Of a stretch of DNA of 64,000 bases, positions 6,227 through 64,000 are shown one piece after another (positions within the stretch are counted from its first letter, which is position 1; the number at the start of each line of letters is the position of its first letter). The notes under the pieces are model-generated. The model worked only from the letters and a program-made list of their open reading frames with translations. It was not told the DNA's origin and ran no database searches. The stretch comes from Microbacterium sp. KUDC0406 (lineage in GTDB: Bacteria > Actinomycetota > Actinomycetes > Actinomycetales > Microbacteriaceae): contig NZ_CP091138.1 in NCBI RefSeq assembly GCF_021582875.1, positions 2,666,001 through 2,730,000 on the forward strand, given 5' to 3'. The position numbers were made by a program, and so were the translations under genes.

Positions 6227-6306
6227 CTTCGTCTCGCTTCGCTCGCTCAGGACCCGGGCCCTTCGACAAGCTCAGGGACCCACCCTTCGACAAGCTCAGG
6301 GACCCA
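6227..6306. repeat. Family A copy followed by two tandem family B copies
   Basis: A family A element (6227-6254, TTCGTCTCGCTTCGCTCGCT core) is followed by two directly adjacent, identical 24-base family B units (6259-6282 and 6283-6306), each reading CCCTTCGACAAGCTC then AGGGACCCA. The second ends 5 bases before the GGAG of the SDR gene, so these repeats lie in that gene's 5' untranslated region, between it and TetR. Confidence 0.85.
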
Positions 6307-6319
6307 CAAAGGAGAAGAA

Positions 6320-7314
6320 ATGGCACTCACCGCACACTCCACCATCGGCGACTGGCTGAACGACCCCACGGGCAGCGAGCTCATCAAGGGTCTGCTCGCG
6401 CAGTCGGGCGGCGACCCGTCGCAGCTCACCCCGTACTCGGCCTGCCGCTGCAGCAGCTCGTCGTCATGAGCCAGGGCGCCATGCCGCAGTCCGTCGTCGA
6501 CGACCTGGTGCGCGCCGCCAACGGCGGAGAGATCCCCGCCGACGACGAGACCGCAGGCTGGACCGAGCAGGTCACCGCCGGACGCTTCGCCGGCAAGACC
6601 GTGATCGTCACCGGCGCGGCATCCGGAATCGGCAAGGCCACCGCCTCGCGCATCGCCCGCGAAGGCGGCCGCGTCGTCGCCGCCGACATCTCGGCCGACA
6701 AGCTGGATGCCCTGGCCGCAGAGCTCCCCGGGATCGTCACCGTTGCCGGAGACCTCACCCAGCAGGCATCCATCGACGCCGTCATCGCCGCCGCCGGCGA
6801 CCGCATCGACGGACTCGCCAACGTCGCGGGCATCAACGACGACTTCTCGCCCGCCGGCGAGACCCCCGACGCCGTCTGGGACCGCGTCATCGCGATCAAC
6901 CTCACCGCGCCGTTCAAGCTGATGCGCGCGGTGCTGCCGATCATGGAGGCCGCCGGCAGCGGCGCGATCCTCAACGTCTCGAGCGAGACCGGCCTGCGCG
7001 GCAACGCCTCGGGCAACGCCTACACCGCCAGCAAGCACGGCATCATCGGCGTCACCAAGTCGGCCGCGTTCATGTACGGCCCCAAGGGCATCCGCGTGAA
7101 CTCCGTCGCACCCGGCGGCGTGGCCACCGGCATCCCGATGCCGCCGAACATGTCGGAGGCGGGCTCCGCGCGTCTCGCGCCGTTCCAGCAGGCGATCCCG
7201 ACGGTCGCGACGGCCGAGCACCTCGCCGCGTCGATCACGTTCCTGCTCTCGGACGACGCCGTCAACATCAACGGCGCGATCCTCGCGTCGGACGGCGGAT
7301 GGTCGGTGCAGTAA
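6320..7314 (+). CDS. SDR family dehydrogenase with N-terminal GH3-tail-like module, frameshifted
   Basis: Starts at ATG 6320 with AAAGGAGAAG just upstream. One base is missing at about 6434 (CCGTAC for CCGGTAC); repaired, the protein is 331 residues. Residues about 80-331 are a classical short-chain dehydrogenase: TGAASGIGKA for NAD(P), NVAG, the catalytic Ser in NVSSETG, and YTASK (YxxxK). Residues 1-70 (STIGDWLNDPTGSELIKGLL, then LPLQQLVVMSQGAMPQSVVD) are not part of the SDR fold. They closely resemble the C-terminal tail of the GH3 enzyme at 39.3-41.6 kb, so a link to glycoside metabolism is plausible. TetR lies divergently upstream. The substrate is unknown. Confidence 0.85.
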
Positions 7315-7330
7315 GCACCGGATGCTGGGG

Positions 7331-7542
7331 CGTTTCGTCTCGCTGTCGCTCGCTCAACGACCGGGAGGGGTGACCACCTCGGTCGTTGAGCGAGGGAGCG
7401 CCAGCGAGCGAGCGCCGTACTGAGCGAGCGAAGCGAGTCGAAGTGACGAAGCGTGGTGAAGTTCCTCGCGAACTGAGAGCGTTTCGTCTCGCTCCTCCGT
7501 CGCTCGCTCAACGACCGGAGGTGTGAGCTCGCTCAACGACCG
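7331..7542. repeat. Cluster of family A repeats between convergent SDR genes
   Basis: At least four family A copies in both orientations (about 7331-7370, 7381-7440, 7479-7520, 7531-7542), each with GCGTTTCGTCTCGC and/or GCTCAACGACCGG ends. The last copy supplies the stop codon of the minus-strand SDR gene. Inverted copies could fold into long stems and act as a bidirectional terminator. Confidence 0.85.
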
Positions 7543-8387
7543 ATGTCGGTGGCCAACTCCCACATCCGGCGACCCGCGGCCGGGTCGTGCAGCGACCGGA
7601 ACAAGGGGCGCTCCCGCGGAGCACCGGCCAGCCCGAACCAACCACCGGGTAGGAAGAAGCATCCCGGCGCGGCATCCCGCTCCAGCGCCATCAGCGCGGG
7701 CAGCGCGCCCTGCGCCGGACTGTTGCCTGGCATCCGGCGCAGCCAGCGCTCCTCGCCGCCGGGCAGTCGGCTGCGCAGCGCCGGCGCGATGTGCGTCGCC
7801 GGCGCGACACCCGGATGGCACAGGTTCACCGTGATGCCCTCGCTGCGTCGCGCGAGCTCCAGCGCCCACAGGCCCAGCGCGCGCTTCGATCCGGCATACG
7901 CGCGCCAGGCGCTGTACCGGCGCTCGCCCTCGAGATCGTCGAGCCTCCCGCGCGTCGCCGCGACACTCACCTGCACCGCGACGCGGGCGTGCGCAGCGAC
8001 CAGCAGCGGCATCAGCTCGCGCGTGAGCACCGCGTGCCCGAGGAAGTTCGTCTGCAGATGCAGCTCGTGCCCGTCGGCGGTGACGTGCCGAGTCCGGTCG
8101 CCGAGCAGCACGATCCCGGCGTTCATCACGAACAGGTCGATCGGAGCGTTGCTCTCCCGCAGCTTCGCGCCGACCGCGGTGATCGTGCCGAAATCGGCCA
8201 GGTCGAGATCGCAGATCTCGAGTGCGGCTTCCGGAACCGACTGGCGGATGCTGCGCGCCGCGGCTTCCCCACGATCGCGATCGCGCACGGGGAGGATCAC
8301 ATGCGCGCCGTCTGCGGCGAGTGCCCGCGCGATCTCGAGGCCGATGCCGCCGGTCGCTCCGGTGACGAGCGCGCGGGGAGAGGGCAT
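7533..8387 (-). CDS. SDR family NAD(P)-dependent oxidoreductase
   Basis: A 284-residue short-chain dehydrogenase: TGATGGIG at residues 10-17 binds the cofactor, NAGIVLL marks strand 4, a Ser occurs in VQVSVAATRG, and YAGSK gives the catalytic Tyr and Lys. NLCHPGVAPATHI resembles the WW-domain-oxidoreductase/retinol-dehydrogenase-like branch. The substrate is unknown. The gene ends GGT-CGT-TGA, where CGGTCGTTGA is the edge of a family A repeat, so its last two residues and stop come from the repeat. It is a single gene, convergent with the SDR at 6320. Confidence 0.88.
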   Translation of the reverse strand: MPSPRALVTGATGGIGLEIARALAADGAHVILPVRDRDRGEAAARSIRQSVPEAALEICDLDLADFGTITAVGAKLRESNAPIDLFVMNAGIVLLGDRTRHVTADGHELHLQTNFLGHAVLTRELMPLLVAAHARVAVQVSVAATRGRLDDLEGERRYSAWRAYAGSKRALGLWALELARRSEGITVNLCHPGVAPATHIAPALRSRLPGGEERWLRRMPGNSPAQGALPALMALERDAAPGCFFLPGGWFGLAGAPRERPLFRSLHDPAAGRRMWELATDIGR

Positions 8388-8396
8388 GGAGACAGC

Positions 8397-8768
8397 GTGG
8401 CATCGTCCCGGGTGTCGAGGGAAGCTGAAGCCGTTTCGTCACTTCGACTCGCTTCGCTCGCTCAGCACGGCGCCCGCTCGTTCCTCACTCGCTCAACGAC
8501 CGGAGGTCCTTCATCTATCTTCCTCGCCGCCACGCTGGTCCCCGCCGCGACGCGCAGCCTGTCCAACGGCCTGCGCATCTTCGGCAACGTGCTCGTCACC
8601 CTCGGCGCCGTCGGCGGCGCAGCCGCCGTGATGCTCATGGGCATCCAGACGCTACGCTCCCCCGGCAACGACTTCGGCTGGGGAGGGCCCGTGCTGCTGT
8701 TCGGCATGCTCGCCGTGCTGCCGCTGCTGAGCAGCGCGGCCCGGTCCATCGTCAGCCCGCGGCGCTGA
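8397..8768 (+). CDS. Small membrane protein, start uncertain
   Basis: An open frame ends at 8768 with two probable membrane helices: FGNVLVTLGAVGGAAAVMLM and GGPVLLFGMLAVLPLLSSAA. The frame is open back to GTG 8397, which has GGAG 5 bases upstream, but that version translates a family A repeat (8431-8506) into the N-terminus. A later GTG at 8589 keeps only the hydrophobic part, 59 residues. SNGLRIFGNVLVTLG looks like ordinary coding sequence, so the real start lies before 8556. I do not recognise the family. The gene is divergent from the SDR at 8387. Confidence 0.5.
   Translation: MASSRVSREAEAVSSLRLASLAQHGARSFLTRSTTGGPSSIFLAATLVPAATRSLSNGLRIFGNVLVTLGAVGGAAAVMLMGIQTLRSPGNDFGWGGPVLLFGMLAVLPLLSSAARSIVSPRR
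8431..8506. repeat. Family A repeat pair
   Basis: Two A-type segments in the same orientation, the first with GTTTCGTCACTTCGACTCGC and the second ending CTCGCTCAACGACCGG at 8505. They lie between the divergent SDR and the small membrane protein gene and may be read as its N-terminus. Confidence 0.7.
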
Positions 8769-8963
8769 CGGTCACGCCGCACCGGCATCTTCGTCCGCTC
8801 AACGGCTGCTGCCTTCGCCCTGCGGGTCCGTGGGACCCACATCCTTTCAACAACCTCCGCCTCGGCGAAGTTCTCCACCGGTCCCGGCATCCGATCGTGG
8901 AATGCCCGCAGAATGTAGGCGACTCCTCCGAAGATTCGAAGCACCACGAATCGAGGAGGCACT

Positions 8964-9665
8964 GTGAGCGACACGAAGCTCGACCTGATCACCAAGCTGT
9001 TGGCCAAGGCCGAGAGCACCACGCCGGAAGAGGCCGAGGCGCTCACCGAGCACGCCGAGCGCCTCATGCTGAAGTACGGCATCGAGCAGGCACGCATCGA
9101 CGAGAAACGGGCGCGGCTGGGCCAGACATCCGAAGAGATCGTGCAGGAGCGGATGCTGTTCAGCGGCGCCTACGTCCGCGACATCCGCGAACTCGGTGCC
9201 GGCGTCGCGCTGGCGCTCGGGTCGCTGCATCCGCTCTACGGCAACGGGGAATCTGCGCTGTATTTCGTCGGGTTCGCGTCGGACGTGCGGCAGGCGCAGA
9301 TCCTGACCGCGAGTCTCGAGGTGCAGGCGATGGTCGCGATGCGCTCGTGGTGGACCATCGAACGGCACCGGTACCACTGGGGCTCCGAGGCGGACAGGCG
9401 GCGAGCGCGCAGCGGGTTCATCCGTGGCTTCGGCGTCGGCGCGGCCGAGCGCATCCGCGAGAGCCGGCGCATGCTGCTGGCCGAGGCCGGCACCGGGATG
9501 GATCTCGTACTGGCGTCGCGCAAGGAGCGCGTGGACACCTTCGTCGACGGGATGCGCCTGCGCAAGGCGCGCACCCGGCGGGGAGCGGATGCCGGTGGCT
9601 TCACCCGCGGGCACGCGGCCGGCCGCGAGGCGAACACGGGCGGGACGGCGATCGAGCATGAGTGA
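8964..9665 (+). CDS. DUF2786 domain protein
   Basis: A 233-residue protein from GTG 8964 with GAGGAG just upstream. Residues 1-45 (DLITKLLAKAESTTPEEAEA and AERLMLKYGIEQA) are the DUF2786 domain. The remainder is a helical region with WWTIERHRYHWGSEADRRR and SGFIRGFGVGAAERI, seen in actinobacterial and phage DUF2786 proteins. The function is unknown; members often occur in phage or plasmid regions. The C-terminal 40 residues are Arg/Gly-rich and probably disordered. It is a single gene, followed by the HicAB remnant. The 190 bases between 8769 and 8963 show no gene or recognisable site. Confidence 0.8.
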   Translation: MSDTKLDLITKLLAKAESTTPEEAEALTEHAERLMLKYGIEQARIDEKRARLGQTSEEIVQERMLFSGAYVRDIRELGAGVALALGSLHPLYGNGESALYFVGFASDVRQAQILTASLEVQAMVAMRSWWTIERHRYHWGSEADRRRARSGFIRGFGVGAAERIRESRRMLLAEAGTGMDLVLASRKERVDTFVDGMRLRKARTRRGADAGGFTRGHAAGREANTGGTAIEHE

Positions 9666-9711
9666 GAGCGGGCTCACGGCACCCAACGAAACAGTCTCAG
9701 TGGGCTAGACT

Positions 9712-9845
9712 ATGGGAAGTCACACCACGTGGGAAGGACCGAACGGAACGACCTTCACGCTGCCGGACGCCACAGCACGATCAGCCCAGGCGTGTACCGA
9801 AAACTGCTCAAGGCCATCGAGAAGGACGAGAATGACGCGCTTTGA
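9712..9845 (+). pseudogene. hicA: HicA toxin remnant
   Basis: After the ATG at 9712 the frame reads GSHTTWEGPNGTTFTLPD, the central double-stranded-RNA-binding part of HicA (GSH motif). The frame then breaks: one G is missing at about 9769 (GGACGCC for GGACGGCC). Repaired, it continues HSTISPGVYRKLLKAIEKDE and stops at 9843-9845, a normal HicA end. The N-terminal strand and helix that precede GSH in full HicA are absent, with an in-frame TAG just upstream. A -10-like TAGACT (9706-9711) abuts the ATG, so a transcript from it would begin after that ATG. The toxin is therefore probably inactive even if the frameshift is a sequencing error. Confidence 0.65.
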
Positions 9846-10218
9846 AGCAAGTGTGACCCGCGAGGGCAAGTGGTGGATGGTCAGCATCCCCTCCATCGAC
9901 GGACTGACACAGGCCCGTCGGCTCGGCAAGGCCACCGAGATGGCACGGGAGTACATCGCCGCATCGCAGGACCTTCCCCTCGACGAGATCGCCGTTGACC
10001 TCACGTTCGCCCCCATCGGTGGCGTCGGGGACATCACCGCACGCGTCGCCCGAATCGCCGCAGAGCGGAGGCGGATGGCGGAGCTCGAGCGGGACGTCGT
10101 CACGGAGTCTGGCGTTCTTGCGGAGCAGCTCGCTGCCGCCGACGTCCCACTCCGCGACATCGGAGCAATCCTCGGCGTCTCGCACCAGCGCGCACACCAA
10201 CTGACCACGACCAACTGA
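9832..10218 (+). CDS. hicB: HicB-like antitoxin
   Basis: A 128-residue protein from ATG 9832, overlapping the end of the HicA frame by 14 bases. Residues 1-60 show the HicB partial RNase H fold (FEASVTREGKWWMVSIPSID, then ARRLGKATEMAREYIAAS). The C-terminus (ADVPLRDIGAILGVSHQRAH) is a helix-turn-helix suited to autoregulation. HicB binds and inhibits HicA. Here the antitoxin is intact while the toxin is truncated, so it may survive only as a DNA-binding protein. Confidence 0.8.
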   Translation: MTRFEASVTREGKWWMVSIPSIDGLTQARRLGKATEMAREYIAASQDLPLDEIAVDLTFAPIGGVGDITARVARIAAERRRMAELERDVVTESGVLAEQLAAADVPLRDIGAILGVSHQRAHQLTTTN

Positions 10219-10283
10219 CCCCGAAGCATCCGCGGACACCTCGGAGCGACTCCGGGACCGCGCGGACCGCCCGTCCTGAACTC

Positions 10284-11959
10284 GTGCCCATGCTGTACGC
10301 CGACGTCACGACCCCGAGCGAGGCTGAGGCTCTCGCGACCCGCATCCTCGCGATACGGCCGCGCCCGCTGGTGCTGGTCTCGGCGACTCCGGAGGGCGAG
10401 TTCGCGTTCGACGACGAGCGGCTGCGGCACGAGCTCGGCGACGTCGCCGACGTGGTCACCATCGCGACCGGCAAGGCCACGCACGCCCTCGAACAGCTGC
10501 TGCCGCCCAAGACCCACGCGTTCGGAGGCGCCGCGCGCTCCTACCCGGTCGACTTCGGCAAGGACCCGGACTGGTCCCGCTCGCGACTGCGGTTCCCCGG
10601 CAAGGCCGACACCGACGACCTCATCGCCGACGCGATGGCGCAGTCCGTGCAGCAGGTGCGGCGCACCGTCGAATCGGCGGCCCCCGCCGCCGTGCGCCGG
10701 GTGACGGGAGTGGTGAAGGGCTTCATCGCCGACGACACCCGCGCCCTGGTCGAACTCGCCGACGGCACCACCGTCACCGCGACCGGCGACCTGCTGCCCG
10801 ACACCCTGCCGCTGGCCTTCGCGCTCGTGCCCGGATCACCCGTGACCGGCATCCTCCAGGGCAGGAGCTGCACCCGGAGCCCTTCCCCGCCGACCTCAGC
10901 ACCCTGGCCGACGGTGCGAACACTCTCTCGCTGGTCGTCAAAGTCACCGAGCTGCGCGCCACCGTGCACCTGCATCCCGACCACGCGTTCGTGCTGCGGC
11001 GACGTGACGTCAGCACCGACGAGAGCCCGGTCAGCGACGTGCTCGCCGTGGGCGACGTCATCCGCGTGCGCGTCGGACACGGCCCGGCCGGCGAGGTGCT
11101 GCTCAGCCATGCCGCGCGCGACGACGACGCGCCGCTCACGCCCGCCTTCCCTCTCGTCACCGGCGGGTCGCCCTGGCTGAGCGAGGATCGCAAGGTCGCG
11201 CGATCGGACGCTGCAGAGCCGAACGCCCCGACGCCGGCATCCGCTCCTCTCCCTCCCGACGACTACGCGACCCGAAACGACGTGCGGATGCTGGCGCAGG
11301 CGATCTCCGCCCTGCGCGGCGACCTGCTCGCGGTGACCAGCCTCGTCGGACGCGGCGGCGATGCGGCATCCGGCTCTCCCTCGTCGGCAGAGCTCGAGCA
11401 GTTGCGCGCGGAGAACGCGCGCCTGCGCAGCGAACTCGCCGAGGAGCGCGCGGAGCGCGCGCGGGCAGAGGCGCGACTCAGCGAGAGCTCGCAGGACCAG
11501 CGCGACAACGCGCGGGCGCTGCGCGACGCGCGCCGTGCCGCGGAGCGCGCGCACGTCGACCCGACCGAGGACGGCATCCGGTTCGAGATCGAACGCACCT
11601 GGGGAAACCGCACCGCCCCCGGGGAGCGCAAGCGGTGGCCGCTGCGGGAGTTCCGGTTCGGGCCGGACTTCATCGGCTCGCTGTCGAAGCTCGACGAGAA
11701 CCAGCTGGCCAAGGCGGTGCGTGCCTGCGTCGACGCGATCACCGGCCGCGACCGCGAGATCCCCGCCCGCGACCTGCACCGCCTGCGCACCGGCGAAGGC
11801 GGAGACGATGCCTACGTCGTGCGAGCCGACGGCGCGAAGTGCTGGCGCTCCGCGATCGAGCAGGGCACTCCTGGTGCCCGCCGGCTGCATTACTGGGAGC
11901 TGTCCGGAGACGTCGTCGAGCTCAGCCGCATCGTGCTGCACGACGACACGAAGCCGTGA
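10284..11959 (+). CDS. Unknown multidomain protein with coiled coil, frameshifted
   Basis: Starts at GTG 10284 (a Met codon follows at 10290). One base missing at about 10868 (CTCCAGGG) joins it to a second frame; repaired length is 558 residues. Parts seen: residues 15-85 an alpha/beta segment (RPRPLVLVSATPEGEFAFDD); around 140-190 a small beta-rich segment (RRVTGVVKGFIADDTRALVE) followed by a second (VGDVIRVRVGHGPAGEVLLS) that look like S1/OB folds; residues about 370-435 a charged coiled coil (ELEQLRAENARLRSELAEER); residues 460-558 a compact alpha/beta domain (WPLREFRFGPDFIGSLSKLD to RLHYWELSGDVVELSRIVLH) reminiscent of RelE/ParE-like or DUF-type domains. I do not recognise the whole protein. 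RNA binding is a guess from the OB-like segments. Confidence 0.6.
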
Positions 11960-11965
11960 CGCACT

Positions 11966-12112
11966 CCGGTCGTTGAGAGCGCTTCGACTCGCTCCGCTCG
12001 CTCAACGACCCACCCCCGGTCGTTGAGCGAAGCGACGAAGGAGCGAAGACGAAACGCCCCAGCCGACCGGAGAGCGTTTCGACTCGCTCCGCTCGCTCAA
12101 CGACCGGAGGCC
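11966..12112. repeat. Three family A copies between convergent genes
   Basis: Copies at about 11969-12010, 12017-12057 and 12072-12108 in alternating orientation (GGTCGTTGAG..., then GCTCAACGACC...). Adjacent inverted copies can pair over about 30 bases. The rightmost copy overlaps and provides the stop codon of the adhesin gene at 12097-12099. Confidence 0.85.
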
Positions 12113-13946
12113 GTGGCGCCCGTGGCCCGCCGTCGGACAGCGGCACCGGCCGTGACCACCGCGCCGCTCACGAGTAGAGCGGCGGCGATCAGTGCCAGGC
12201 CGCCTCCGTCGCCGCCGCCGGTGAGAGCGAGCGATGCTGGCGGCGCCGCAGTCGGTGCCGGCGATGCCGGCGGCACGACCGACGCCGGGGTCTTCTCATT
12301 GACGATCTGCCCGAAGCTCGCGGCCGTGTGCTCCGCGTCGATCGTCACCGTGAACGTCTTGTCCGTGCGCTCGTACCCCGCCGGCGCCTTGGTCTCGGTG
12401 AGCGTGTAGGTGCCCGCAGGTAGCCCGCCGACGCCGAGCACGCCGTCTGCGTCAGCCTCATCGCCCTGGCCGCCGTCGACCACCGCGATGTCCCCGTCCG
12501 GCCCCAGACGAGCCACTCCGAACCCGCGAGCGCGGCACCGTCGCGATCGACCTTCTGCCAGGACAGGCTGCCGACGACGGGCGTCGTGTTCGCCTGGTTC
12601 GTGAGGGTGAACTGCACACCGGCCGTCGTCGACGGGGTGACCTCGTAGCGGCCGTCACCGGTCGCTGTGACACCCTCCCCGGTGATGCTCCAGTCGCCCC
12701 AGGTCACGCCGTCGATCGTCGGGAGGTCGATCTCCTCGACGATGAACGTCGAGCCGAGAGGTGCGCGGTCGCTGCGCACGGCCTGCCCGACCGGAACCGA
12801 CAGCGTCTTCGCCGGAGCATCCGATCCCTTGATGGAATAGCGCACCGTGAAGGTCGCACCGCGCGCAGCATCCGCCTGCTCGCCGGACAGCGCCTTCGTG
12901 ATCTCGAACCTCGTGAACCGCGCGCCGGTTCCGCTGCCACCGCCGGCTTCCGTCACGACGACCCGCGCCGACGTGTCGGAGGAGTTGACGGTCGCGCTGT
13001 TGCCGAACACGTCACCGGCCTGCACGATTCCGTCCGCCTGCGTGAAGTACTGCAGGCGGTAGGACATCCCGGAGGACGGCAGACCCGACGCCGTGAACTC
13101 GAAAGAGAGGTCATCGGGGGCGAACGTCATCTGATAGCGGGACGTGTCGACTTCGGTCCAGTTGCCGACGAGCACGCCGTCCTGGACAGGCCGCTGCAGC
13201 AGCCGGGCCTCACCGGTGTAGTGGTGGTACTCGAGGTCGCGATCGAGAGAGTCGCGCACCACGAAACCGCCGTCGCGGACCGCGCTGCTCGGAATTCCGA
13301 CCACCCAGCTCAGCAGCCCATCGGTCGCCGTCGGCCCGCCGTACTTGTACGGCTGCCCGGCCTCGGTCAGGTCCTCGGGAGTGATCCCGCCACCGCCGGG
13401 AAGAGTCACGATCTCGACCGTGCTGCCCAGGTCGAACTCCACCGTGCCGCTCGTGTTCGACTGCGAGGCCGTCACCTCGACCCAGAACGAACCACCGGGA
13501 TTCTCCATGTCCTCGACGGCCGCTGTCAGCGTGCAGACGAGCTCAGGACCGTTGCCGCCGGCGATCTGGCACTGCGCGAGCACCACGCCGCTGTCAGGAT
13601 CGGCGATATCGAACGATCCGCCGCCGCTGCGGCTGAACTCGTCGGGCAGCGTCATCCCGAAGGTGTCTCCGGCCTGGGAGCCGGTGGGCACGGACCAGTC
13701 GCCCGTGATGCGGACCTTCTCCCATTGCGCCACCGGCCCGCTGCCGTTGGTCTTCTCGATCGCAAGGTTCGAGATCGCGTCGGCATGGGTCACCGTCGGC
13801 GCTGCCGCGGCAATCTGCGCGGTGCCGAGCAGCGCTGCAGCGACGAGAGTCACCCCCGTCAGCGCTGATGTGAGGCCGCGCCACCAGCGCCCGCCCCGTG
13901 GTCGTGTCGACTTCTGCGCACGCCGAACGTGCTGTCCCCGAGCCAT
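12097..13946 (-). CDS. Wall-anchored SpaA/DUF5979-type surface protein, frameshifted
   Basis: Starts at 13946 (GGGGAG 8 bases upstream). Signal peptide: WWRGLTSALTGVTLVAAALL ending near AAAA-PTV. The middle has repeated Ig-like adhesin modules, including a DUF5979-like one (FEITKALSGEQADAARGATF), then a SpaA/prealbumin-like domain (SLSWQKVDRDG, PAGTYTLTETKAPAGYE). It ends with the sorting signal LALTG, a hydrophobic helix and RRRATG, as recognised by class E sortases of actinobacteria. One missing C near 12510 breaks the frame between SEWLV and LGPDGD; repaired length is 616 residues. The stop lies in a family A repeat (GGT-CGT-TGA). A surface adhesin or matrix protein; no sortase gene is in the window. 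Confidence 0.85.
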
Positions 13947-14082
13947 CAATGCATCTCCCCAGAATTCGTGCGCTCGGCACACGCCGAGCTCTTCCCCAGT
14001 ACTTGAGAGACGGCGTGACACGCCGATCATTACGCGACTCCGCGAAACGAGGGATGTCCGACCCCGGTGCGAGACTGATGGG

Positions 14083-15606
14083 ATGAAGCTCGAAGAGCTC
14101 ACCGACACCGCCGACGAGGTCGCGGCGACGTCGTCGCGGCTCGCGAAGATCGACGCACTCGCCCGGCTGCTCTCGCGCGCAGACCCGGCCGAACTTCCGG
14201 TGCTCGTGGGCCTGCTGCTCGCCTCACCGCGGCAGGGCCGGCTGGGCGTCGGATGGCGCGGACTCTCGGCCCTGCAGGTCGACCATGCGGATGCCGCGAC
14301 TCTGAGCATCATCGACGTCGACGACGCCCTCGACGCGCTCGCGCACGCCTCCGGCACCGGATCGGCCGCCCAGCGCACCGGGCTGCTCGAAGACCTCGCC
14401 TCGCGTTCGACGCCCGACGAATGGGACTTCCTCGCCCGCGCCATGCTCGGCGAACTGCGCACCGGCGCGCTCGGCGGCGTGCTGCTCGACGCGATCGCCC
14501 GCGCCGCCGATCGACCGGTGGCATCGGTCCGCCGCGCAGCCATGCTGTCGGGCGACCTCGGCGAGACGGCCGTGATCGCCCTCACCGGCACGGAAGCCGA
14601 CCTCGACGCAGTCGGGCTGCAGGTCGGCCGGCCCGTGCTGCCCATGCTCGCCGCCACCGCCGCCACCCCGACCGCCGCGCTCGAGATCACCGGCCGCGCC
14701 TCGGTCGAGTACAAGCTCGACGGCGCCCGCATCCAGGTGCACCGGCACGGCGACGAGGTCGGCGTCTACACGCGCAGCCTCGCCGACATCACGCACCGCG
14801 TGCCCGAGATCGTCGACATCGTGCGCGCTCTGCCCGCGCACGACCTGATCCTCGACGGCGAGACCCTCTCGCTCGACGAGGACGGCGGGCCGCGGCCGTT
14901 CCAGCAGACCATGTCGCGCTTCGGTGCAGATGTCTCACGTGAACTCGTGCTGCGGCCCTGGTTCTTCGACCTGCTGCACGTCGACGGCCGCGATCTCATC
15001 GACGAACCGCTCTCCACCCGGCTTGAAGAACTCGAGCGTGTCGCCGGCGACTGGCGGATGCCCGGCACCGTCACCGACGACGCGGATGCTGCGGAGCAGC
15101 TCTCCCGCGAGGCCCTCACCGCCGGTCACGAAGGCGTGCTGGTCAAGGCCATCGACGCGCCCTACGCCGCCGGACGGCGGGGAAAGTCGTGGGTCAAGGT
15201 CAAGCCCGTGCTCACCTACGACCTCGTGGTGCTCGCTGCGGAGTGGGGTTCGGGGCGCCGGCGCGGCTGGCTGTCGAATCTGCACCTCGGCGCGCTCGAC
15301 CCCGTGGGTGAGTTCGGAGAGCCCGGCGGCTTCGTGATGGTCGGCAAGACCTTCAAGGGACTCACCGACGAGCTGCTGAAATGGCAGACCGAGACGTTCC
15401 CCGAGTACGAAACCGAGCGCACGCCGTACGCCGTGCACCTGCGGCCGGCGCTGGTCGTCGAGATCGCGATCGACGGCGTGCAGAACTCGCCCCGCTACCC
15501 CGGCGGCATCGCCCTGCGCTTCGCCCGGGTGAAGGGCTACCGACCCGACAAGACCCCGGCCGAGGCCGACACCATCCAGACGCTGCGGGGGCTGCTGCGC
15601 GGGTGA
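14083..15606 (+). CDS. ligB: ATP-dependent DNA ligase (LigB type)
   Basis: A 507-residue ligase. Residues 1-170 are the N-terminal DNA-binding domain (VLVGLLLASPRQGRLGVGWR). The adenylation motif is EYKLDGARIQ with Lys211 as the AMP acceptor, followed by IYTRS-like VYTRSLAD, DGE (LILDGETLSL), WFFDLLHVDG, EGVLVKAID and WVKVKP, then an OB-fold domain ending VKGYRPDKTPAEADTI. Length and order match mycobacterial LigB. It seals nicks in repair; the NAD-dependent LigA normally does replication. It is divergent from the adhesin, spacer 136 bases. GAGACT-GATGGG before the ATG may be a weak leaderless -10. Confidence 0.93.
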   Translation: MKLEELTDTADEVAATSSRLAKIDALARLLSRADPAELPVLVGLLLASPRQGRLGVGWRGLSALQVDHADAATLSIIDVDDALDALAHASGTGSAAQRTGLLEDLASRSTPDEWDFLARAMLGELRTGALGGVLLDAIARAADRPVASVRRAAMLSGDLGETAVIALTGTEADLDAVGLQVGRPVLPMLAATAATPTAALEITGRASVEYKLDGARIQVHRHGDEVGVYTRSLADITHRVPEIVDIVRALPAHDLILDGETLSLDEDGGPRPFQQTMSRFGADVSRELVLRPWFFDLLHVDGRDLIDEPLSTRLEELERVAGDWRMPGTVTDDADAAEQLSREALTAGHEGVLVKAIDAPYAAGRRGKSWVKVKPVLTYDLVVLAAEWGSGRRRGWLSNLHLGALDPVGEFGEPGGFVMVGKTFKGLTDELLKWQTETFPEYETERTPYAVHLRPALVVEIAIDGVQNSPRYPGGIALRFARVKGYRPDKTPAEADTIQTLRGLLRG

Positions 15607-15644
15607 CCTACTGAGAACTACTAGAACAGTGGCAGAATCGAGGC

Positions 15645-15908
15645 ATGGCCACCGTGACGAAGACAGAGCTCAACCAGCAGACCGCGCGCGTGCTGGCGCG
15701 GGTGGCTGCCGGTGAGCGACTGACTGTCACCGATCGCGGCCGCCCGATCGCGCAGCTCACTCCGCCGGAAGAGGATGTCTGGAGCGACCTCATCGCCGCC
15801 GGGCGCGTGACCCTGCCCACGAGGTCCGGGGCTCTGCAGCATCCACCGGCGAAGAGCGGGAAGACGAGTGCCGAGATCCTCGACGACCTGCGGGCCGACC
15901 GCCTGTGA
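15645..15908 (+). CDS. vapB: Phd/YefM-type antitoxin of a VapBC pair
   Basis: An 87-residue protein with the Phd/YefM N-terminal DNA-binding fold (VTKTELNQQTARVLARVAAG, TVTDRGRPIAQL) and a variable C-terminal tail (SAEILDDLRADRL) that would occupy the toxin's active site. It overlaps the PIN toxin by GTGA at 15905-15908. It is expected to repress the operon with the toxin. GAGGC precedes the start. Confidence 0.9.
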   Translation: MATVTKTELNQQTARVLARVAAGERLTVTDRGRPIAQLTPPEEDVWSDLIAAGRVTLPTRSGALQHPPAKSGKTSAEILDDLRADRL

Positions 15909-16279
15909 TCTACCTCGACACCTCGGCCGCTGCCAAGGCCCTGCTCGACGAGGACGGAAGCGCGGACGTCCGCGCGCTGATCGCCTCCGGAGCCGAATTC
16001 GTCTCCTCGCGGTTGCTGGCCGTCGAACTCCACGCCGTCGCCGACCGACGGCTGCTCGACGCAGCCGCCGTCCAGGAGCTGCTCGACAGGGTCGCCCTCG
16101 TCTCGCTCGACGACGAGACTGCGGCCACGGCGATCACCATGCACTCCCGCCTGCGCACCCTCGATGCCCTGCATCTGGCGACCGCTGTCCGCATTCGCGG
16201 AGTGGTCGACAGCATCCTCACCTTCGATGCGGAGATGCGGGCAGCCGCCGTGGCCGCAGGGATCCCTTCCCGCGACTGA
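15905..16279 (+). CDS. vapC: VapC PIN-domain ribonuclease toxin
   Basis: A 124-residue PIN protein from GTG 15905. The acidic residues are in place: Asp5 in IYLDTS, Glu in LLAVELHAV near 41, Asp in TLDALHLATA near 93, and Asp in ILTFDAEM near 111. VapC toxins cleave tRNA or rRNA. The length is normal and no damage is seen. It is coupled to the antitoxin. Immediately downstream (16284) is a family C repeat. Confidence 0.92.
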   Translation: MIYLDTSAAAKALLDEDGSADVRALIASGAEFVSSRLLAVELHAVADRRLLDAAAVQELLDRVALVSLDDETAATAITMHSRLRTLDALHLATAVRIRGVVDSILTFDAEMRAAAVAAGIPSRD

Positions 16280-16283
16280 CGCG

Positions 16284-16371
16284 GCATCCCGTCGGAGATC
16301 TGCATCATTCCGGAGACTTCTGCCCGGTCGGCATCCGAGATGCTGCAGATCTCCGAGATCGTGCAACTCAG
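16284..16371. repeat. Family C dyad repeat, copy 1
   Basis: About 85 bases bounded by a perfect 13-base inverted repeat: TCGGAGATCTGCA at 16292-16304 and TGCAGATCTCCGA at 16344-16356, loop 39 bases. The copy at 17150-17228 is in the same orientation, and the two flank the methyltransferase gene. It lies between vapC and that gene's promoter. Confidence 0.8.
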
Positions 16372-16390
16372 CGCTGGTGCACCGGCCGAC

Positions 16391-16396
16391 TACGCT
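16391..16396 (+). promoter_or_regulatory. -10 box of leaderless promoter for the methyltransferase
   Basis: TACGCT is followed by GGCGCG and ATG at 16403, a 6-base gap. No Shine-Dalgarno is visible. Confidence 0.5.
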
Positions 16397-16402
16397 GGCG
16401 CG

Positions 16403-17143
16403 ATGACCGATCCGATGCATTTCGACGGCATCGCCGGCGGATACGGCGCGGCGCGTCCGCCGTATCCCGCGGCGCTGTGGTGGACCGTCGAGGAGACGGG
16501 GCTGGTCACGCCAGGGCGCGTCGCCCTCGACCTCGGTGCCGGCAGTGGCGAGGCGACCGGCGAACTCCTCGCACGCGGCATGGACGTCATCGCCGTCGAG
16601 CCCGGGGAGCACCTGGCGGCGATCCTCGCGCAGCGCCTTCCCCGAGCCACGACGATCCGCGCCCGCGCCGAAGACCTCGACCTCGCCCCGGCATCCGTCG
16701 ACCTCGCCGTCGCGGCGACCTCGATCCACTGGATGGACCTCGGCCTCGTGCTGCCGATCGTCCACCGCACCCTGGCTCCCGCAGGGCGCCTGCTGATCTG
16801 GCGCAACGTGTTCGGTGACGCCGACGCCGAGATCACTCCGTTCCGACGCGAGGTGCAGCGCATCGTCGACCGCCGCAGCACCGTCCGAGCCGGCGACCCG
16901 GAGAGCGCCGATCTCGCTGCGGAGCGGGTCGCCGCATCCGGCCTGTTCACGATCGCCGGCATCCACCGCTACCGCTGGAGCATCGATCTGACCACCGATC
17001 AGGTGCGGGCGCTCTTCACCACCTTCAGCGACTGGTCACTGGCCGAGGTCGAGGCCGCCTCCGCCGCGGTCGCCGCCCTCGGCGGCACCGTGACCGAGTA
17101 CTACACGTCGTGGCTGATCGACGCGCGGCCGATCCCGCTCTGA
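16403..17143 (+). CDS. Class I SAM-dependent methyltransferase
   Basis: A 246-residue protein. Motif I is ALDLGAGSGEATG at residues 41-53, the acidic end of strand 2 is VIAVEPG, and motif IV is DLAVAATSIHWMD, typical of Methyltransf_11/UbiE-like small-molecule enzymes. The HWMD segment occurs in trans-aconitate-type and related proteins. The substrate is unknown. The start at 16403 was preferred over an ATG at 16340, which lies inside the family C repeat. Family C copies in direct orientation flank the gene on both sides. Confidence 0.88.
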   Translation: MTDPMHFDGIAGGYGAARPPYPAALWWTVEETGLVTPGRVALDLGAGSGEATGELLARGMDVIAVEPGEHLAAILAQRLPRATTIRARAEDLDLAPASVDLAVAATSIHWMDLGLVLPIVHRTLAPAGRLLIWRNVFGDADAEITPFRREVQRIVDRRSTVRAGDPESADLAAERVAASGLFTIAGIHRYRWSIDLTTDQVRALFTTFSDWSLAEVEAASAAVAALGGTVTEYYTSWLIDARPIPL

Positions 17144-17149
17144 TCTCGA

Positions 17150-17228
17150 CATCCCGTCGGAGATCTGCAGAATCGCGGATACCTCGGCCCCCGGCATCCG
17201 GAACTCTGCGGAAGTCCGAGATCGTGCC
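17150..17228. repeat. Family C dyad repeat, copy 2
   Basis: Shares its first 21 bases with copy 1 apart from one position (ATCCCGTCGGAGATCTGCA) and its end (GTCCGAGATCGTGC), with a more degenerate right arm (GGAACTCTGCGGAAGTCCGA). It lies between the convergent methyltransferase and FGE-like genes. Confidence 0.75.
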
Positions 17229-17238
17229 TCCGCCTCGC

Positions 17239-19593: not shown

Positions 19594-19676
19594 GGCTGAA
19601 CGCGTCTCGTCTCGCTTCGCTCGCGAGGCGGCCGGGGTATCAACGTGATACGCGAATAGGCGCTTATCGGCCCCGG

Positions 19677-53282: not shown

Positions 53283-53308
53283 GCAACCGAGTGTACTCGC
53301 AGATAAAT

Positions 53309-53330
53309 TTGCGCGACTTTACTTGCGCAA
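53309..53330. promoter_or_regulatory. Candidate operator, TTGCGC repeats (pair 1)
   Basis: TTGCGCG (53309-53315) and TTGCGCAA (53323-53330) lie between the divergent regulator and MFS gene. The same TTGCGCA word occurs twice upstream of the paralogous regulator and again before the second MFS gene. Confidence 0.55.
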
Positions 53331-53358
53331 CTTTCCTCGCGGGATTATCGTCGTCACC

Positions 53359-54699
53359 ATGACCTCGTTATGGCGCAATCTGCAGTACGTCTCGTGGCTC
53401 GTCAGCGACACGAGTAAGGGTCTCGCCGGTGCGCTGTTCCGGTTTGCCGTGCCGCTGATCGCCCTCTTCGTCACGAACGATCCGGCGCAGGCCGGCATCA
53501 TCGCCGGCGTCGGCATGGCCGTGAGCGTCTCGCTCACGCTGTTCGGCGGAGTCCTGGCCGACCGTCACCGTCGCCTGACCCTCATGGTCCTGGGCGCGTC
53601 GATCGGTGTCGCACTGTCGATCGCGTTCACCCTGTTCGCCCTCGGCGACGCGCTCACGTTCTCGACACTGCTCGCGCTCGAGGTGCTGCTCGCCGCGCGC
53701 AGCGGCATCTTCGACCCCTCCGGCGAGGCCGCCCTCAAGGACCTGGTCGCCGCCGACACGATGGGGCGGGCGCAGGCCGCGAACCAGGCTCGGGATGCCG
53801 CGCTGCAGCTGGCCGGTGGCCCGATCGGCGGCGCACTGCTGGTCGTCGGCGGCTGGCTGATCGGCGCCGTCATGGCCGCATGCCAGCTGATCTCCGCCAT
53901 CGCGGCGGCGCTGATCCCCCTGCTGCGCGGGGCGGAGAAGGCGGATGCCGCAAAGGATGCCGACGGGCTCCTGAGCCTGTCGACGGGTCATGACGACGCG
54001 TCGACAGGCTCAGCGACCCACGCCGTCGCCAAGCCCAATGCGCTGCGCGAGATCCGGGAGGGATTCGCCTGGCTGTTCTCGCGCCGGGATCTGCGCGGCG
54101 TGCTGCTGATCTCGACCGTCATCAACCTCGGCATCAACACCGTCATGACGACGATCGTCTACTCGCTGCAGCAGGACGGCGAGTCACCTGCGGTGATCGG
54201 CTGGATCAGCGCCGGGATGGGTGTGATGATGCTCGCCGGCGCACTGATGGCGTCCCCGCTGGTCGGCCGTATCGGTGCCGGCAGGCTGATGATCGTCGGG
54301 CTCATCGCACTGTCGATCGGCGCCGCGGCGACGATCTTCACCCGGGATCCTCTGGGGATCGTGCTGGTGATGGCCGTGCCCGGCCTGCTGCTCGCGCCGC
54401 TGAACGCGGGCCTCGGCGGCTACTTCATGGTTGCGACGCCGTCGGAGCTGATGGGCCGGGCGAGCAGCGCCTCCGCGGTGTTCGCCATGGGTGCGATGCC
54501 GCTGGCTCCGCTGATCGCGGGGTTCGGGCTGTCGCTGGTGGGACGCACCGGCACGATCATGATCGGCGTCGTGCTGTCGCTGGTCGCAACCGCGATGGCG
54601 ATCACGAACCGTCCGCTGCGCTCGCTCCCCGCCGAGGCGGGGTGGGAGGCGCACGCCGCACAGTTCGCGGATGCCGGCTCCGGGGTGCCCGTCCGCTGA
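53359..54699 (+). CDS. MFS exporter with in-frame repeat hairpin (paralogue 1)
   Basis: A 446-residue, 12-helix MFS protein of the multidrug-efflux type: LQYVSWLVSDTSKGLAGALF, FGGVLADRHRRLTLMVLGAS (loop 2-3 motif), AAGTMGRAQAANQARDAALQ-type helix 4 region (DTMGRAQAANQARDAALQLA). The central cytoplasmic loop between helices 6 and 7 holds a translated repeat: CTGAGCCTGTCGACG (53971-53985) and its perfect complement (53999-54013), read as LSLSTGHDDASTGSATH. The start at 53359 is 7 bases after TATCGT, a possible leaderless -10. Controlled by the divergent winged-helix regulator. Confidence 0.9.
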   Translation: MTSLWRNLQYVSWLVSDTSKGLAGALFRFAVPLIALFVTNDPAQAGIIAGVGMAVSVSLTLFGGVLADRHRRLTLMVLGASIGVALSIAFTLFALGDALTFSTLLALEVLLAARSGIFDPSGEAALKDLVAADTMGRAQAANQARDAALQLAGGPIGGALLVVGGWLIGAVMAACQLISAIAAALIPLLRGAEKADAAKDADGLLSLSTGHDDASTGSATHAVAKPNALREIREGFAWLFSRRDLRGVLLISTVINLGINTVMTTIVYSLQQDGESPAVIGWISAGMGVMMLAGALMASPLVGRIGAGRLMIVGLIALSIGAAATIFTRDPLGIVLVMAVPGLLLAPLNAGLGGYFMVATPSELMGRASSASAVFAMGAMPLAPLIAGFGLSLVGRTGTIMIGVVLSLVATAMAITNRPLRSLPAEAGWEAHAAQFADAGSGVPVR

Positions 54700-61975: not shown

Positions 61976-62919
61976 GGGGTGCCTTCGGTGTCGGGTGAGG
62001 CTGCGTCGGACGAGGCCTTGTCCTGTCCCTGATCGGACGCGGGCTCGCGCGATGCGAATGGTTCCAGCGCGAAGAGCCGCAGCATCCGTGCGGCCTCGGC
62101 GGCCACGGCATCCCGCGCCGGCGAGATGTACTTGCGCGAGTCTACGAGCTTCTCGTCGGCGGCGAGGCGTTCGCGCACCGCGCGGGTGAAGAACCCGTTC
62201 AGGTGCGTCGACACGTTGATCTTCGTCATGCCGGCCCGAACCGCCTCGGTGATCACGTCGTCGGGGACGCCGGACGACCCGTGCAGCACGAGCGGCACGT
62301 CGGTGGCATCCTGCCCGCAGCCGCGCAGCGCCTCGCGCAGGCGGGCGATGAGGTCGAGGTCGAGCGACGCCGAGCGGTCGAGCATCGCGTGCGACGATCC
62401 GACCGCGACCGCCAGCGCGTCGACACCGGTCTCCGCGACGAACGCGCGCGCCTCGTCGGGATCGGTGCGCACGCCGGGCGCATGTGCTCCGTCCTTGCCG
62501 CCGACCTCGCCCAACTCGCCCTCGACGTACACCCCGGCGGCGTGTGCGCGGTCGACGACCGCCGCGGTGAGATCGACGTTCTCGGCGTACTCGAGCTTGC
62601 CGCCGTCGAACATCACCGACCCGAAGCCGAGGTCGATGGCCTCGTGCACCAGCTCGGGCCGCTCGGCGTGGTCGAGGTGCACGGCGACCGGCGTCTCGGC
62701 GCGCCGGGCGATCGCGAGCATCGCCAGCGCGATCGGCTCGAGACCGCCGTGGTAGTCGGCGCAGTTCTGCGAGATCTGCAGGATCACCGGCAGATCGGCG
62801 CGTGCGGATGCCTCGACGAGCGCCTCGGCGGTCTCGAGGTGGATCACGTTGAAGGCACCGATGCCGTTGCCGTTCCAGGCGGCATCCGTCACGAGATCGC
62901 GGGCGGAGACGAGGGTCAT
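61972..62919 (-). CDS. Class II fructose/tagatose-bisphosphate aldolase
   Basis: A 315-residue zinc aldolase: IGAFNVIHLETAEALVEASA, VAVHLDHAERPELVHEAIDL with zinc His, SVMFDGGKLEYAENV, YVEGELGEVGGKDG, and VLHGSSGVPDDVITEAVRAG with a second His. It cleaves a ketose 1,6-bisphosphate or 1-phosphate-type substrate to dihydroxyacetone phosphate plus an aldehyde. With the upstream PfkB kinase this resembles tagatose or related hexose pathways. The acidic tail (REPASDQGQDKASSDAASPD) is extra. Coupled by ATGA to genes on both sides. Confidence 0.92.
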   Translation of the reverse strand: MTLVSARDLVTDAAWNGNGIGAFNVIHLETAEALVEASARADLPVILQISQNCADYHGGLEPIALAMLAIARRAETPVAVHLDHAERPELVHEAIDLGFGSVMFDGGKLEYAENVDLTAAVVDRAHAAGVYVEGELGEVGGKDGAHAPGVRTDPDEARAFVAETGVDALAVAVGSSHAMLDRSASLDLDLIARLREALRGCGQDATDVPLVLHGSSGVPDDVITEAVRAGMTKINVSTHLNGFFTRAVRERLAADEKLVDSRKYISPARDAVAAEAARMLRLFALEPFASREPASDQGQDKASSDAASPDTEGTP

Positions 62920-64000
62920 GCGGTGTCCTTCTGGTCGGGTTCGATCGAGACACCCGGTTCAGCATCAGACGCCGCGCCCTGGCGGGGGTCTCGTGCTGCG
63001 AAAGGTGTCTCGCGGGTGATGATGACGGCGGCCTCGAGTTCGGGCCAGGAGGGGTGGATGTCGCCGGCGAGCGGCATGAGGACGGCGGCGGCGGACCAGG
63101 CGGTGGCGCGACGCAGGATCGCCTCGGGGTCGCGGATGCCGGATGCCAGCAGCACGGCGGCCGCGGAGACGGCGGCGTCGCCGGCACCGGTCGGGTTGCC
63201 GGCGAGAGCCTCGGGAAGACGCGCAGAGACGACGTCCGCGTCGGCCGAGACGGCGAGCATGCCCTCGGCGCCCCGGGACAGCAGGATGAGCGAGGCTCCG
63301 CGACGCAGCAGCTCGTGGGCACCCTCGATCGGATCGGTGATGCCGGTGGCTTCGGCGAGCTCAGCCGCATTCGGCTTGAGCACATCGGCACCGGCATCCG
63401 CCGCGCTCAGCAGCGCCGGCCCCGAGGTGTCGGCGATCACGATCGCGCCGGCCTCGCGTCCGAGGGCGATCAGCGACGGAAGGAGGTCGTCAGGGGTGCC
63501 GGGCGGGACGCTGCCGGAGATCACCAGGACGGGGCGCTGGCCCTCCGGTCGCCCCGCGAGCGGAGCGGGACGAAGCGCCTCCGGGGATACTGAGAGCGTT
63601 TCGTCTCGGTCGCGGGCTCCCTCGCTCAACGACCCGGGGGCAGAGGACGAGTCGCGGACTCCCTCGCTCAACGACCGGGAGGCAGAGGACGAGTCGCGGA
63701 CTCCCTCGCTCAACGACCGGGAGGCAGAGGACGAGTCGCAGACTCCCTCGCTCAACGACCGGGATACGGCGGCCCGCAGGGCATCCCACTCGGCATCGGT
63801 CGGGGCGATGCCGCGCTCGTTCACGATCGTGGTGTCTCCGAGCGCCTCGTCGACCAGGGCGATGCTGCGTCGCGTCGCGGCGGTGACCGGGACCAGCACC
63901 GCGGGCACACCCGCGGCGGTCAGCTCTGCCCGGAACTCCTCGCCCGTCGCGCCGCCGACCGTCGTGACGGCGACGACCTCAGCGCTCGCGGCCTGCGCGA
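62916..64000 (-). CDS. PfkB-type sugar (phosphate) kinase with in-frame 42-base repeats, 5' end beyond window
   Basis: Open to the right edge, so the N-terminus is missing; about 361 residues are visible. PfkB features: VVAVTTVGGATGEEFRAELT, the ISGSVPPGTPDDLL motif, KPNAAELAEATG, and the catalytic ANPTGAGDAAVSAAAVLLAS. It resembles 1-phosphofructokinase/tagatose-6-phosphate kinase. Between the early lid region and ISGSVPPG lies a translated array of 42-base units (63611-63764, 3.7 copies) giving repeated 14-residue blocks such as SEGVRDSSSASRSL. It keeps frame, being a multiple of three. It probably phosphorylates the substrate of the coupled aldolase. Confidence 0.88.
   Translation of the reverse strand, partial: AQAASAEVVAVTTVGGATGEEFRAELTAAGVPAVLVPVTAATRRSIALVDEALGDTTIVNERGIAPTDAEWDALRAAVSRSLSEGVCDSSSASRSLSEGVRDSSSASRSLSEGVRDSSSAPGSLSEGARDRDETLSVSPEALRPAPLAGRPEGQRPVLVISGSVPPGTPDDLLPSLIALGREAGAIVIADTSGPALLSAADAGADVLKPNAAELAEATGITDPIEGAHELLRRGASLILLSRGAEGMLAVSADADVVSARLPEALAGNPTGAGDAAVSAAAVLLASGIRDPEAILRRATAWSAAAVLMPLAGDIHPSWPELEAAVIITRETPFAARDPRQGAASDAEPGVSIEPDQKDTA
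63611..63764. repeat. 42-base tandem repeat derived from family A, inside the kinase gene
   Basis: Units at 63611-63652, 63653-63694, 63695-63736 and a partial one at 63737-63764. Each contains CCCTCGCTCAACGACCGGGA followed by GGCAGAGGACGAGT. Units 2 and 3 are identical and unit 1 differs at a few bases. A standard family A end (GCGTTTCGTCTCGG) directly precedes the array at about 63597. Confidence 0.92.

Follow-up and report, generated by a model that had tools for sequence, protein, structure and literature searches.

Two short repeats of a Microbacterium genome are probably members of one superfamily resembling repetitive extragenic palindromes

Introduction

A stretch of 64,000 nucleotides from Microbacterium sp. 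KUDC0406 (contig NZ_CP091138.1, positions 2,666,001 to 2,730,000; hereafter the window, in whose coordinates positions are given unless stated otherwise) carries copies of two short repeats, A of about 33 bp and B of 24 bp. An initial annotation of this DNA noted that each repeat is open in five of its six reading frames and gives an immediate stop in the sixth, and proposed that this is a design by which an element can land in a gene and either add a harmless peptide or close the frame at once. The question raised by this locus is what kind of repeats A and B are, and whether their coding behavior calls for an explanation of its own. Our results indicate that A and B are built on one plan with pairing, covarying arms, and are probably two members of a single superfamily of short repeats in Microbacterium that resemble repetitive extragenic palindromic (REP) sequences.

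Results

The repeats are real and abundant. Family A had initially been reported in at least 20 places of the window, which is true of its head, GCTCAACGACCGG: with up to one mismatch it occurs at 25 sites, of which at least two (26038 and 27262) were judged to be chance matches within coding sequence, and CGTTTCGTCTCGC occurs at 14 sites at the same threshold. B is found exactly (24 bp) in a tandem pair at 6259-6306 and nowhere else in the window, and with 2-5 mismatches at five more window sites (44754, 47562, 51941, 53964 and 53997). In the whole genome, which is a single contig of 3.61 Mb (G+C content of the window, 69%), a 30-bp A pattern with up to three mismatches yielded 166 copies and its reversed control none, while an exact 22-mer of B yielded 13 matches against none for the reversed control. 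The sequence CTCGCTCAACGA occurs 122 times, whereas a 4th-order Markov model predicts 0.31 occurrences. Further counts were made on an 864-kb sample consisting of the window and 40 spaced stretches of the same genome, in which a full A copy was defined as a head and a tail within 45 nt. This sample contains 122 full copies with overlaps unmerged, or 108 once merged; 85 head-only or tail-only matches were excluded from the location figures; 48 of these are genic, many of which probably arose by chance.

Among the records listed for the exact A pattern, 77 of 80 are named Microbacterium, and in 57 other genomes the A pattern matched 18 of 34 from the same genus and none of 23 from elsewhere in the order. 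Copy number varies widely between species: A with the arms of our genome ranges from 0 to 166 copies per species sampled, and an arm-agnostic A pattern is absent from 36 of 59 Microbacterium genomes. A scan of the window against Rfam at gathering scores gave no match, and none of the open-licence papers listed in literature searches dealt with the A or B repeat sequences.

Both A and B fit the plan CNNT-GAGC...TCGA-ANNG with pairing, covarying arms and, because one plan fits both, they are not independent families. Read on one strand, the unit is GGT-CNNT-GAGC-(loop)-TCGA-ANNG, i.e., a short tag, a 4-nt arm, a loop with conserved ends (in the superfamily 11 nt at its shortest and 40 nt or more at its longest), and an arm complementary to the first. 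For the arm test, TCG(A/T)C...GCTC cores were collected from 900 kb of the genome and the four bases before each core were compared with the four after it. Of 5338 core pairs, 211 had exactly complementary 4-nt arms, whereas 20 arm shuffles averaged 48 (at most 63) and the reversed-core control gave 23 of 3712. The arm spectrum of our genome is dominated by CGTT (120, family A) and CCCT (42, family B), followed by CGCT (15), with others rare.

The arms also covary between genomes. Among the sites listed for the A loop in other Microbacterium genomes, the arms are mostly CGTT/AACG, with occasional compensated forms (CACT/AGTG, CCCT/AGGG, TCCT/AGGA and CGCT/AGCG) and with unpaired variants such as CATT/AACG. 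In 120-kb stretches of three relatives, G260 has mainly TCCT arms, G083 a mixture in which CCCT and TCCT are commonest, and G204 CGTT arms. In a genome from another family of the order (G039, L298), 20 of 34 sites with B-type cores have exactly paired arms, distributed as GGTT/AACC (11), GGTC/GACC (5), GATT/AATC (3) and GATC/GATC (1). Matches listed for the core pattern across the phylum were mostly coding background, and among four genomes re-listed from that scan paired arms were seen only in G039, the other three giving 0 of 79 by eye.

The six translations initially given for A and B were reproduced. Of the 122 full A copies, 109 have five open frames, nine have four, three have six and one has three. 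Such openness needs no explanation, because random segments and shuffles reach it routinely: 82.5% of random 33-base segments of the window (n=20000) have five or six open frames (43.1% exactly five), 90% of random 24-base segments have at least five, and the corresponding values for random intergenic segments are 73.8% (33-base) and 82.5% (24-base), while shuffled A and shuffled B have exactly five open frames in 44% and 43% of cases, respectively. The five-of-six pattern therefore cannot be read as a design, nor do A and B provide two separate cases of it, since both have one common architecture. The stop in the sixth frame (TGAGC) arises because the arm ends in T before GAGC, and the units of G039 with GGTC/GACC and GATC/GATC arms are open in all six frames. 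It remains correct that copies within genes are either read through or close the frame at once; the stop frame of A was found only at gene ends, which follows from gene calling, since a copy in that frame cannot appear inside a called gene. We consider it likely that the open frames follow from base composition, and that they allow copies to survive in genes without having been shaped for survival.

Full copies are depleted in genes and in divergent gaps and are concentrated directly behind genes. Using a simple dicodon gene caller, which misses some genes (822 genes in 864 kb, 85.8% coding), we found 35 of the 122 full copies in genes against approximately 105 expected. Densities per kb were 1.90 in convergent gaps (n=38), 0.68 in codirectional gaps (42), 0.25 in divergent gaps (7) and 0.047 in genes (35). 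The same order was seen in 80 loci from other records (3.99, 1.44, 0.59 and 0.052 per kb, respectively), which were chosen for holding an exact A copy and from which 27 of 189 copies at locus edges were excluded. Genes are thus avoided rather than targeted, the genic density being about 0.05 per kb against 0.7-4 per kb in convergent and codirectional gaps. Within codirectional gaps, 25 copies lie closer to the upstream 3' end and 14 closer to the downstream start. Adjacent full copies form 51 pairs, of which 26 are tail-to-tail, 11 head-to-head and 14 direct, and the commonest dimers carry the GGT end outside. A bias of orientation relative to the replication strand was not consistent across 450-kb bins, though one bin gave 8:21.

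Some copies supply the stop codon of the preceding gene. Among the 788 genes with a called stop, 20 end on the TGA of an A head with up to one mismatch, and 25 do so with a looser pattern; read-through copies within 75 nt of a stop number five, in four genes, one of them being head-only and possibly due to chance. An orthologue was present for 16 of the 20 genes in loci fetched from G260 and G083. In at least two cases (one in sample stretch L024 and window gene 33779-34843) a relative has the same stop context with no head there, and a gene of 316 amino acids in L045 and a minus-strand gene in L047 are doubtful; about 16-18 of the 20 are clear. In 35 of 36 comparisons covering the 16 genes (duplicate loci included) the protein ends no more than seven residues from the relative's end, the exception being an alignment that runs past a stop. 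Because the protein ends agree with those of relatives, the TGA-supplying copies lie at or near the native stop and do not truncate the protein. Among orthologues of stop-supplied genes (L024 excluded), 7 of 30, not all independent, carry an element, of one arm type or another, no more than 100 nt from the stop, against a background of 6 of 181 genes in sampled stretches of G260 and G083 (Fisher p 0.0006). The arms were CCCT or TCCT in five of the seven, TGCT in one and CGTT in one; the other 23 orthologues have no element near the stop. These element-bearing orthologue stops suggest either that gene ends are hot spots or that old copies persist there with replaced arms.

Other copies lie in frame within genes. 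In the 864-kb sample they were found in a protein that we take, from its sequence, to be MenD (four copies), an ABC-F protein, HutI, a DEAD-box/DUF3516 helicase, a protein with two ABC_tran domains and CbiQ, and part of a UvrD-type helicase, and within the window in a lipase-maturation-factor protein, an RlmG-like methyltransferase and a PfkB kinase; domains were named by domain matches, and HutI and the RlmG-like protein by homologue records. Most of these genes keep intact frames downstream of the copies, which are presumably neutral in the proteins. Frames are used unevenly: genic full copies occupy S0 (13), A2 (11), A0 (7) and S2 (4) in our genome, and S2 (12), A2 (9), S0 (5) and A0 (2) in the 80 other loci. 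Frame A1 was used by none of these 63 copies, of which those within one gene are not independent; counted by hand once per gene and frame it is 0 of 46, with a probability of 3.5e-5 if five frames were equal. A1 is nonetheless rare, not impossible, since homologue P0004 of the RlmG-like protein, inspected by eye, seems to use it partly. As a separate observation, in-frame A copies are also present in Kdp-type loci of three Microbacterium records (L159, L197 and L224), which we take from their sequences to be KdpE/KdpD, and this gene region may have been hit repeatedly.

A comparison of orthologous genes, which the initial annotation had proposed, revealed that orthologues differ by the presence or absence of copies. 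The MenD insert (residues 151-248) is covered by no match above 100 bits in 38 other genomes, and the linker that holds it has 125 residues against 15-41 in the 16 relatives with an extracted frame, of 29 relatives' loci. The DEAD-box helicase linker has 68 residues against 22-45 in 18 of 29 relatives' loci. The HutI peptide VSSRFARST occurs in one of the 120 best homologues, that of our genome itself, and B-type peptides in five of these 120, in P0144 in the same loop. The insert of the RlmG-like protein precedes the first strand of the methyltransferase domain, in a part of the predicted model with reduced confidence (predicted local distance difference test [pLDDT] score of 59 at residues 291-300, mean 82.1), and P0004 appears by eye to have a related insert in the same place. 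DNA alignments with G083, G260 and G204 revealed empty sites intergenically as well: six tandem B copies at genome positions 2633022-2633156 are absent from all three, and several aligned relatives carry other-arm repeats at corresponding places. Most window copies past approximately 23 kb have no alignable relative in the stretches of these three genomes.

The window illustrates these arrangements; strands refer to the strand reading GGTC..TGAGC. The B tandem pair at 6259-6306 (minus strand), with CCCT/AGGG arms, lies upstream of a small open reading frame (6320-6469) and is preceded by an A-like unit with other arms, CGTCCTTCGTCTCGC...GCTCAGGACCC. An intergenic A copy at 7331-7361 (minus) is followed by a copy with an extra head at 7480-7540 (minus), whose head at 7529-7540 forms the stop codon of gene 7533-8387 (minus, adh_short); this protein ends in ...TDIGR*, and those of both relatives in ...EATLPAP*. 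The A copy at 22033-22067 (plus) ends gene 20943-22040 (AIRS domains) with its TGA, and two relatives of this gene end in ...TEPAA* without the element. Clusters of A lie at 11998-12107, with a tail-to-tail inverted pair (12019-12056, plus; 12075-12104, minus); at 31254-31407, with a tail-to-tail pair, this cluster giving the stop of gene 31397-31765 (minus, ArsR-type helix-turn-helix); and at 33567-33789, with one plus and three minus copies, where a degenerate head, GCTCGTTGAGCGAG, overlaps the stop of gene 33779-34843 (minus). The TGA of the latter gene may be native, because one relative has the same GCTCGTTGA stop context without the head. A head-to-head inverted A pair at 52560-52644 (52560-52589, minus; 52607-52644, plus) lies directly behind the gene that ends at 52556.

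The genic copies of the window include an A copy in frame S0 at 44595-44627 (minus) within gene 44004-45317 (minus, lipase maturation factor domains), where its peptide PVVERAKRDET sits between the LMF1 and LMF1_C domain matches, and a degenerate B copy (WVPEFVEG) at 44754-44777 (minus) in the same gene. B-like copies lie at 47562-47585 (plus; CGCT/AGCG arms) in the 3' part of gene 47543-48847 (minus, ABC/CBS), at 51941-51964 (plus) in gene 50583-52556 (plus), and as an inverted pair at 53964-54020 in gene 53281-54699 (plus, MFS). In gene 62916-63998 (minus, PfkB), which runs off the window, one full A copy and three tandem head units are read in frame S2 (SLSEG...) at 63597-63762 (minus). An A copy in antisense frame A0 at 49597-49633 (plus) lies in gene 49162-50493 (minus, RlmG-like methyltransferase), just before motif I of the methyltransferase domain. 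The protein of this last gene also has a second variable linker at residues ~213-250 with repetitive peptides (SRAEVGRS; pLDDT <50), and SETTSGVVSRVESGFS-like peptides occur in the same linker of relatives P0012, P0023 and P0025, possibly reflecting another insertion-prone repeat family.

Two further sequence classes stood out in the 864-kb sample. Words of the CGGATGCC / GGATGCCG type are strongly over-represented on both strands, one of them, CGGATGCCGC, being counted 222 times against 62 expected. Ten parS-like TTTCACGTGAAA palindromes, the sole ones in the sample, lie within 3.2 kb at L040:15389-18602 (genome ~2865389-2868613); the group looks like a ParB-type cluster.

Finally, the folding and possible mobilization of the repeats were considered. 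The one tail-to-tail dimer tested (12019-12056 with 12075-12104) folds at -53.6 kcal/mol (z -6.8). Terminator-like sites with T runs are not enriched in window positions 1-20000 (5 against 6.3 in shuffles), and one of them touches an A cluster; in that interval the repeats do not have the form of an intrinsic terminator, i.e., a GC-rich hairpin followed by a T run. Y1_Tnp (PF01797), the family of REP-associated transposases, has no match in our genome, so a REP-associated tyrosine transposase (RAYT) is ruled out as the mobilizer there. The domain was found in one of 59 Microbacterium genomes and in none of the high-copy genomes G000, G008, G028 and G032; 5 of 14 control genomes matched. The single Y1_Tnp-bearing genome of the genus (G355, L267) has no match to the arm-agnostic A pattern.

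Discussion

Several known repeats invite comparison with A and B. REPs tagged with GTAG or CGTC are described in the available text of PMC3733652 as interspersed units of 20-40 bp that form dimers and clusters near 3' ends, lie in the gaps of convergent and unidirectional gene pairs, have termini that in many cases contribute a stop codon, and occur inside conserved genes, including a UvrD-type helicase and rec genes, with an uneven distribution among species. The CGTC type is without a dedicated transposase, and the predominant head-to-head (HH) dimers of the tagged REPs have the tag outside. A and B resemble the tagged REPs in size, dimers, 3'-end placement, supply of stops, intragenic copies and the outward position of the GGT end; they differ in that this end is GGT(C) in the consensus with no terminal GTAG or CGTC, that their arms measure 4 bp against stems of 5-13 bp or 8-9 bp and single copies fold weakly, and that their arms differ between species as covarying sets (compare PMC3733652). 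Because the tag and a stable single-unit stem are lacking, we classify A and B as REP-like and not as GTAG/CGTC REPs. The broader definition of REPs and bacterial interspersed mosaic elements (BIMEs), as given in the available text of PMC2817692, comprises interspersed units of 20-40 bp, usually in more than 100 copies, mainly intergenic and forming composites of alternating orientation; the 166 A copies, mainly intergenic and with 26 tail-to-tail and 11 head-to-head among 51 pairs, correspond to it, whereas a definition that includes a Y1-type transposase in the genome does not apply to our genome.

Rickettsia palindromic elements (RPEs), initially named as the nearest parallel, are a fair one: they measure 105-146 bp, have long stem-loops and lie in frame in conserved protein genes (PMC2229807, available part), and A and B are likewise palindromic, presumably tolerated in frame in conserved genes and absent from orthologues. 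A and B are, however, mostly 24-60 bp, mainly intergenic and from GC-rich Actinobacteria, and the GTAG/CGTC REPs stand nearer through stop supply and genic copies (PMC3733652). Cod-2 of Corynebacterium diphtheriae, a 32-bp repeat in various coding sequences with frame-dependent peptides, is also a short actinobacterial repeat; it is classed as genic in the available account (PMC2267715), whereas A and B are mainly intergenic, and the comparison is by description, not sequence. Correia elements have open-frame versions fused in genes, like A and B, while a 155-bp version with stops in all frames is not, with one exception (PMC2229807, same part). The Correia/NEMIS and ERIC/RU-1 miniature inverted-repeat transposable elements (MITEs) measure 107-168 bp and belong to other bacterial groups, unlike A and B, as far as described in the available parts of PMC2229807 and PMC2759123. 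Of MITE features, the 4-nt arms of A and B pair, and no target-site duplication is readable at ~87% identity. Stop supply and intragenic copies are thus already known for tagged REPs; the words 'actinobacteria', 'actinomyc' and 'Microbacterium' are absent from the available text of PMC3733652, and on our best reading what is new is the actinobacterial host, the covarying arm dialects, the missing RAYT and the frequent placement at stop codons.

We favor the interpretation, which we regard as probable, that A and B are REP-like repeats without a RAYT that spread by copying and are filtered by selection. Copies would enter many sites through some enzyme or repair route other than a RAYT transposase, and selection would then clear those that damage genes. 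Survivors would be copies beside stop codons, some of them giving the TGA themselves, and in-frame copies in protein loops and linkers, a GC-rich 30-mer there adding about 10 mostly polar residues; inverted pairs may double as RNA hairpins behind genes. Copying combined with selection is favored because there is no Y1_Tnp, no phage or plasmid match and no neighboring mobilizer, and single copies fold weakly. Several of our results nevertheless weigh against parts of this interpretation. Single A or B copies fold as RNA or DNA no better than shuffles (z -0.74 to +0.76), which leaves arm covariation and dimers as the grounds for proposing a hairpin. In 80 loci, the 12 gene families most often found next to copies include no convincing mobilizer, and phage and plasmid records gave no match to a 34-base A query at E 0.001. 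The flanks of relatives, ~87% identical, differ by a few bases and allow no clean target-site duplication to be read, which leaves movement by transposition hypothetical. In the closest relatives many A-type copies have arms that do not pair (paired in 2 of 20 in G083 and 4 of 17 in G260); the corresponding figures are 4 of 12 in G204 and 83 of 200 in our genome. The UvrD-type helicase gene with two A copies (L031:8102-9175, minus) has a called frame that ends after 357 residues; either a broken gene or a sequencing error downstream of the copies may account for this. Lastly, the TGA-supplying copies are more concentrated than simple tolerance predicts. The 80 loci around exact A copies also gave a weaker pairing excess (44 of 2402 paired, against 19.6 in shuffles), which we put down to coding background.

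The placement of copies could instead reflect function, with the repeats acting as bidirectional terminators or stabilizers of mRNA 3' ends under selection behind genes. The strong bias toward 3' ends and convergent genes and the stability of the tail-to-tail dimer agree with this, but single copies that fold like shuffles, T-run sites at 5 against 6.3 in shuffles, and 36 of 59 genomes of the genus without the arm-agnostic pattern make it unlikely. We would assign a similarly low likelihood to A and B being MITE-like, non-autonomous copies of a transposon without Y1_Tnp that targets TGA or stop-codon contexts: copy numbers are species-specific (0-166), for 16 of the 20 genes, all but one of 36 comparisons (duplicates included) place the protein end within seven residues of the relative's, and elements, mostly with other arms, lie near the stop in 7 of 30 orthologues (not all independent) against 6 of 181 in the background, but neither a target duplication nor a recurrent adjoining enzyme among the 12 commonest families was seen, 23 of 30 orthologues have no element at that place, and selection near gene ends could yield the identical pattern. 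A further reading, which we regard as unlikely, is that REP-like units without a RAYT home to TGA stops, the paired arm dialect serving as the species' recognition address; given that a gene end can bear copies with different arm types in related species, the arms would be exchanged in step, either by an enzyme or through concerted copying.

The proposal that selection shaped an element with five open frames and a stop in the sixth, so that it enters genes harmlessly or closes them, is consistent with copies that are either read through or stop, with the absence of A1 among 63 genic copies, and with 20 genes ending on an element-like TGA against five read-through copies within 75 nt of a stop. 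It is very unlikely, however, given that at least five open frames are normal for random window DNA (82.5% and 90%), that the stop depends on the arm T before GAGC, with GGTC/GACC and GATC/GATC units open in six frames, and that genes are avoided, at about 0.05 copies per kb. Recognition sequences of the DNA-uptake type with species dialects would fit units that are short, numerous and often in inverted pairs behind genes, and whose arms differ between species in a dialect-like way; yet a unit of ~30 nt with internal covarying arms, a widely variable loop length and many congeners that have none render this extremely improbable.

If A and B are REP-like repeats spread by copying and filtered by selection, Actinobacteria gain a clear counterpart both of REPs and of the protein-coding palindromes of Rickettsia. 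Stretches such as VVERAKRDET, VSSRFARSTT, STGSGT and ELVEG in Microbacterium proteins may be repeat-derived and not conserved motifs. Since many identified enzymes contain such insertions in frame, and the genus offers many species that have copies and many that do not, two questions become testable in ordinary soil bacteria: how REP-like sequences spread in the absence of a RAYT, and how protein loops are built, and stop codons shifted, by short insertions.

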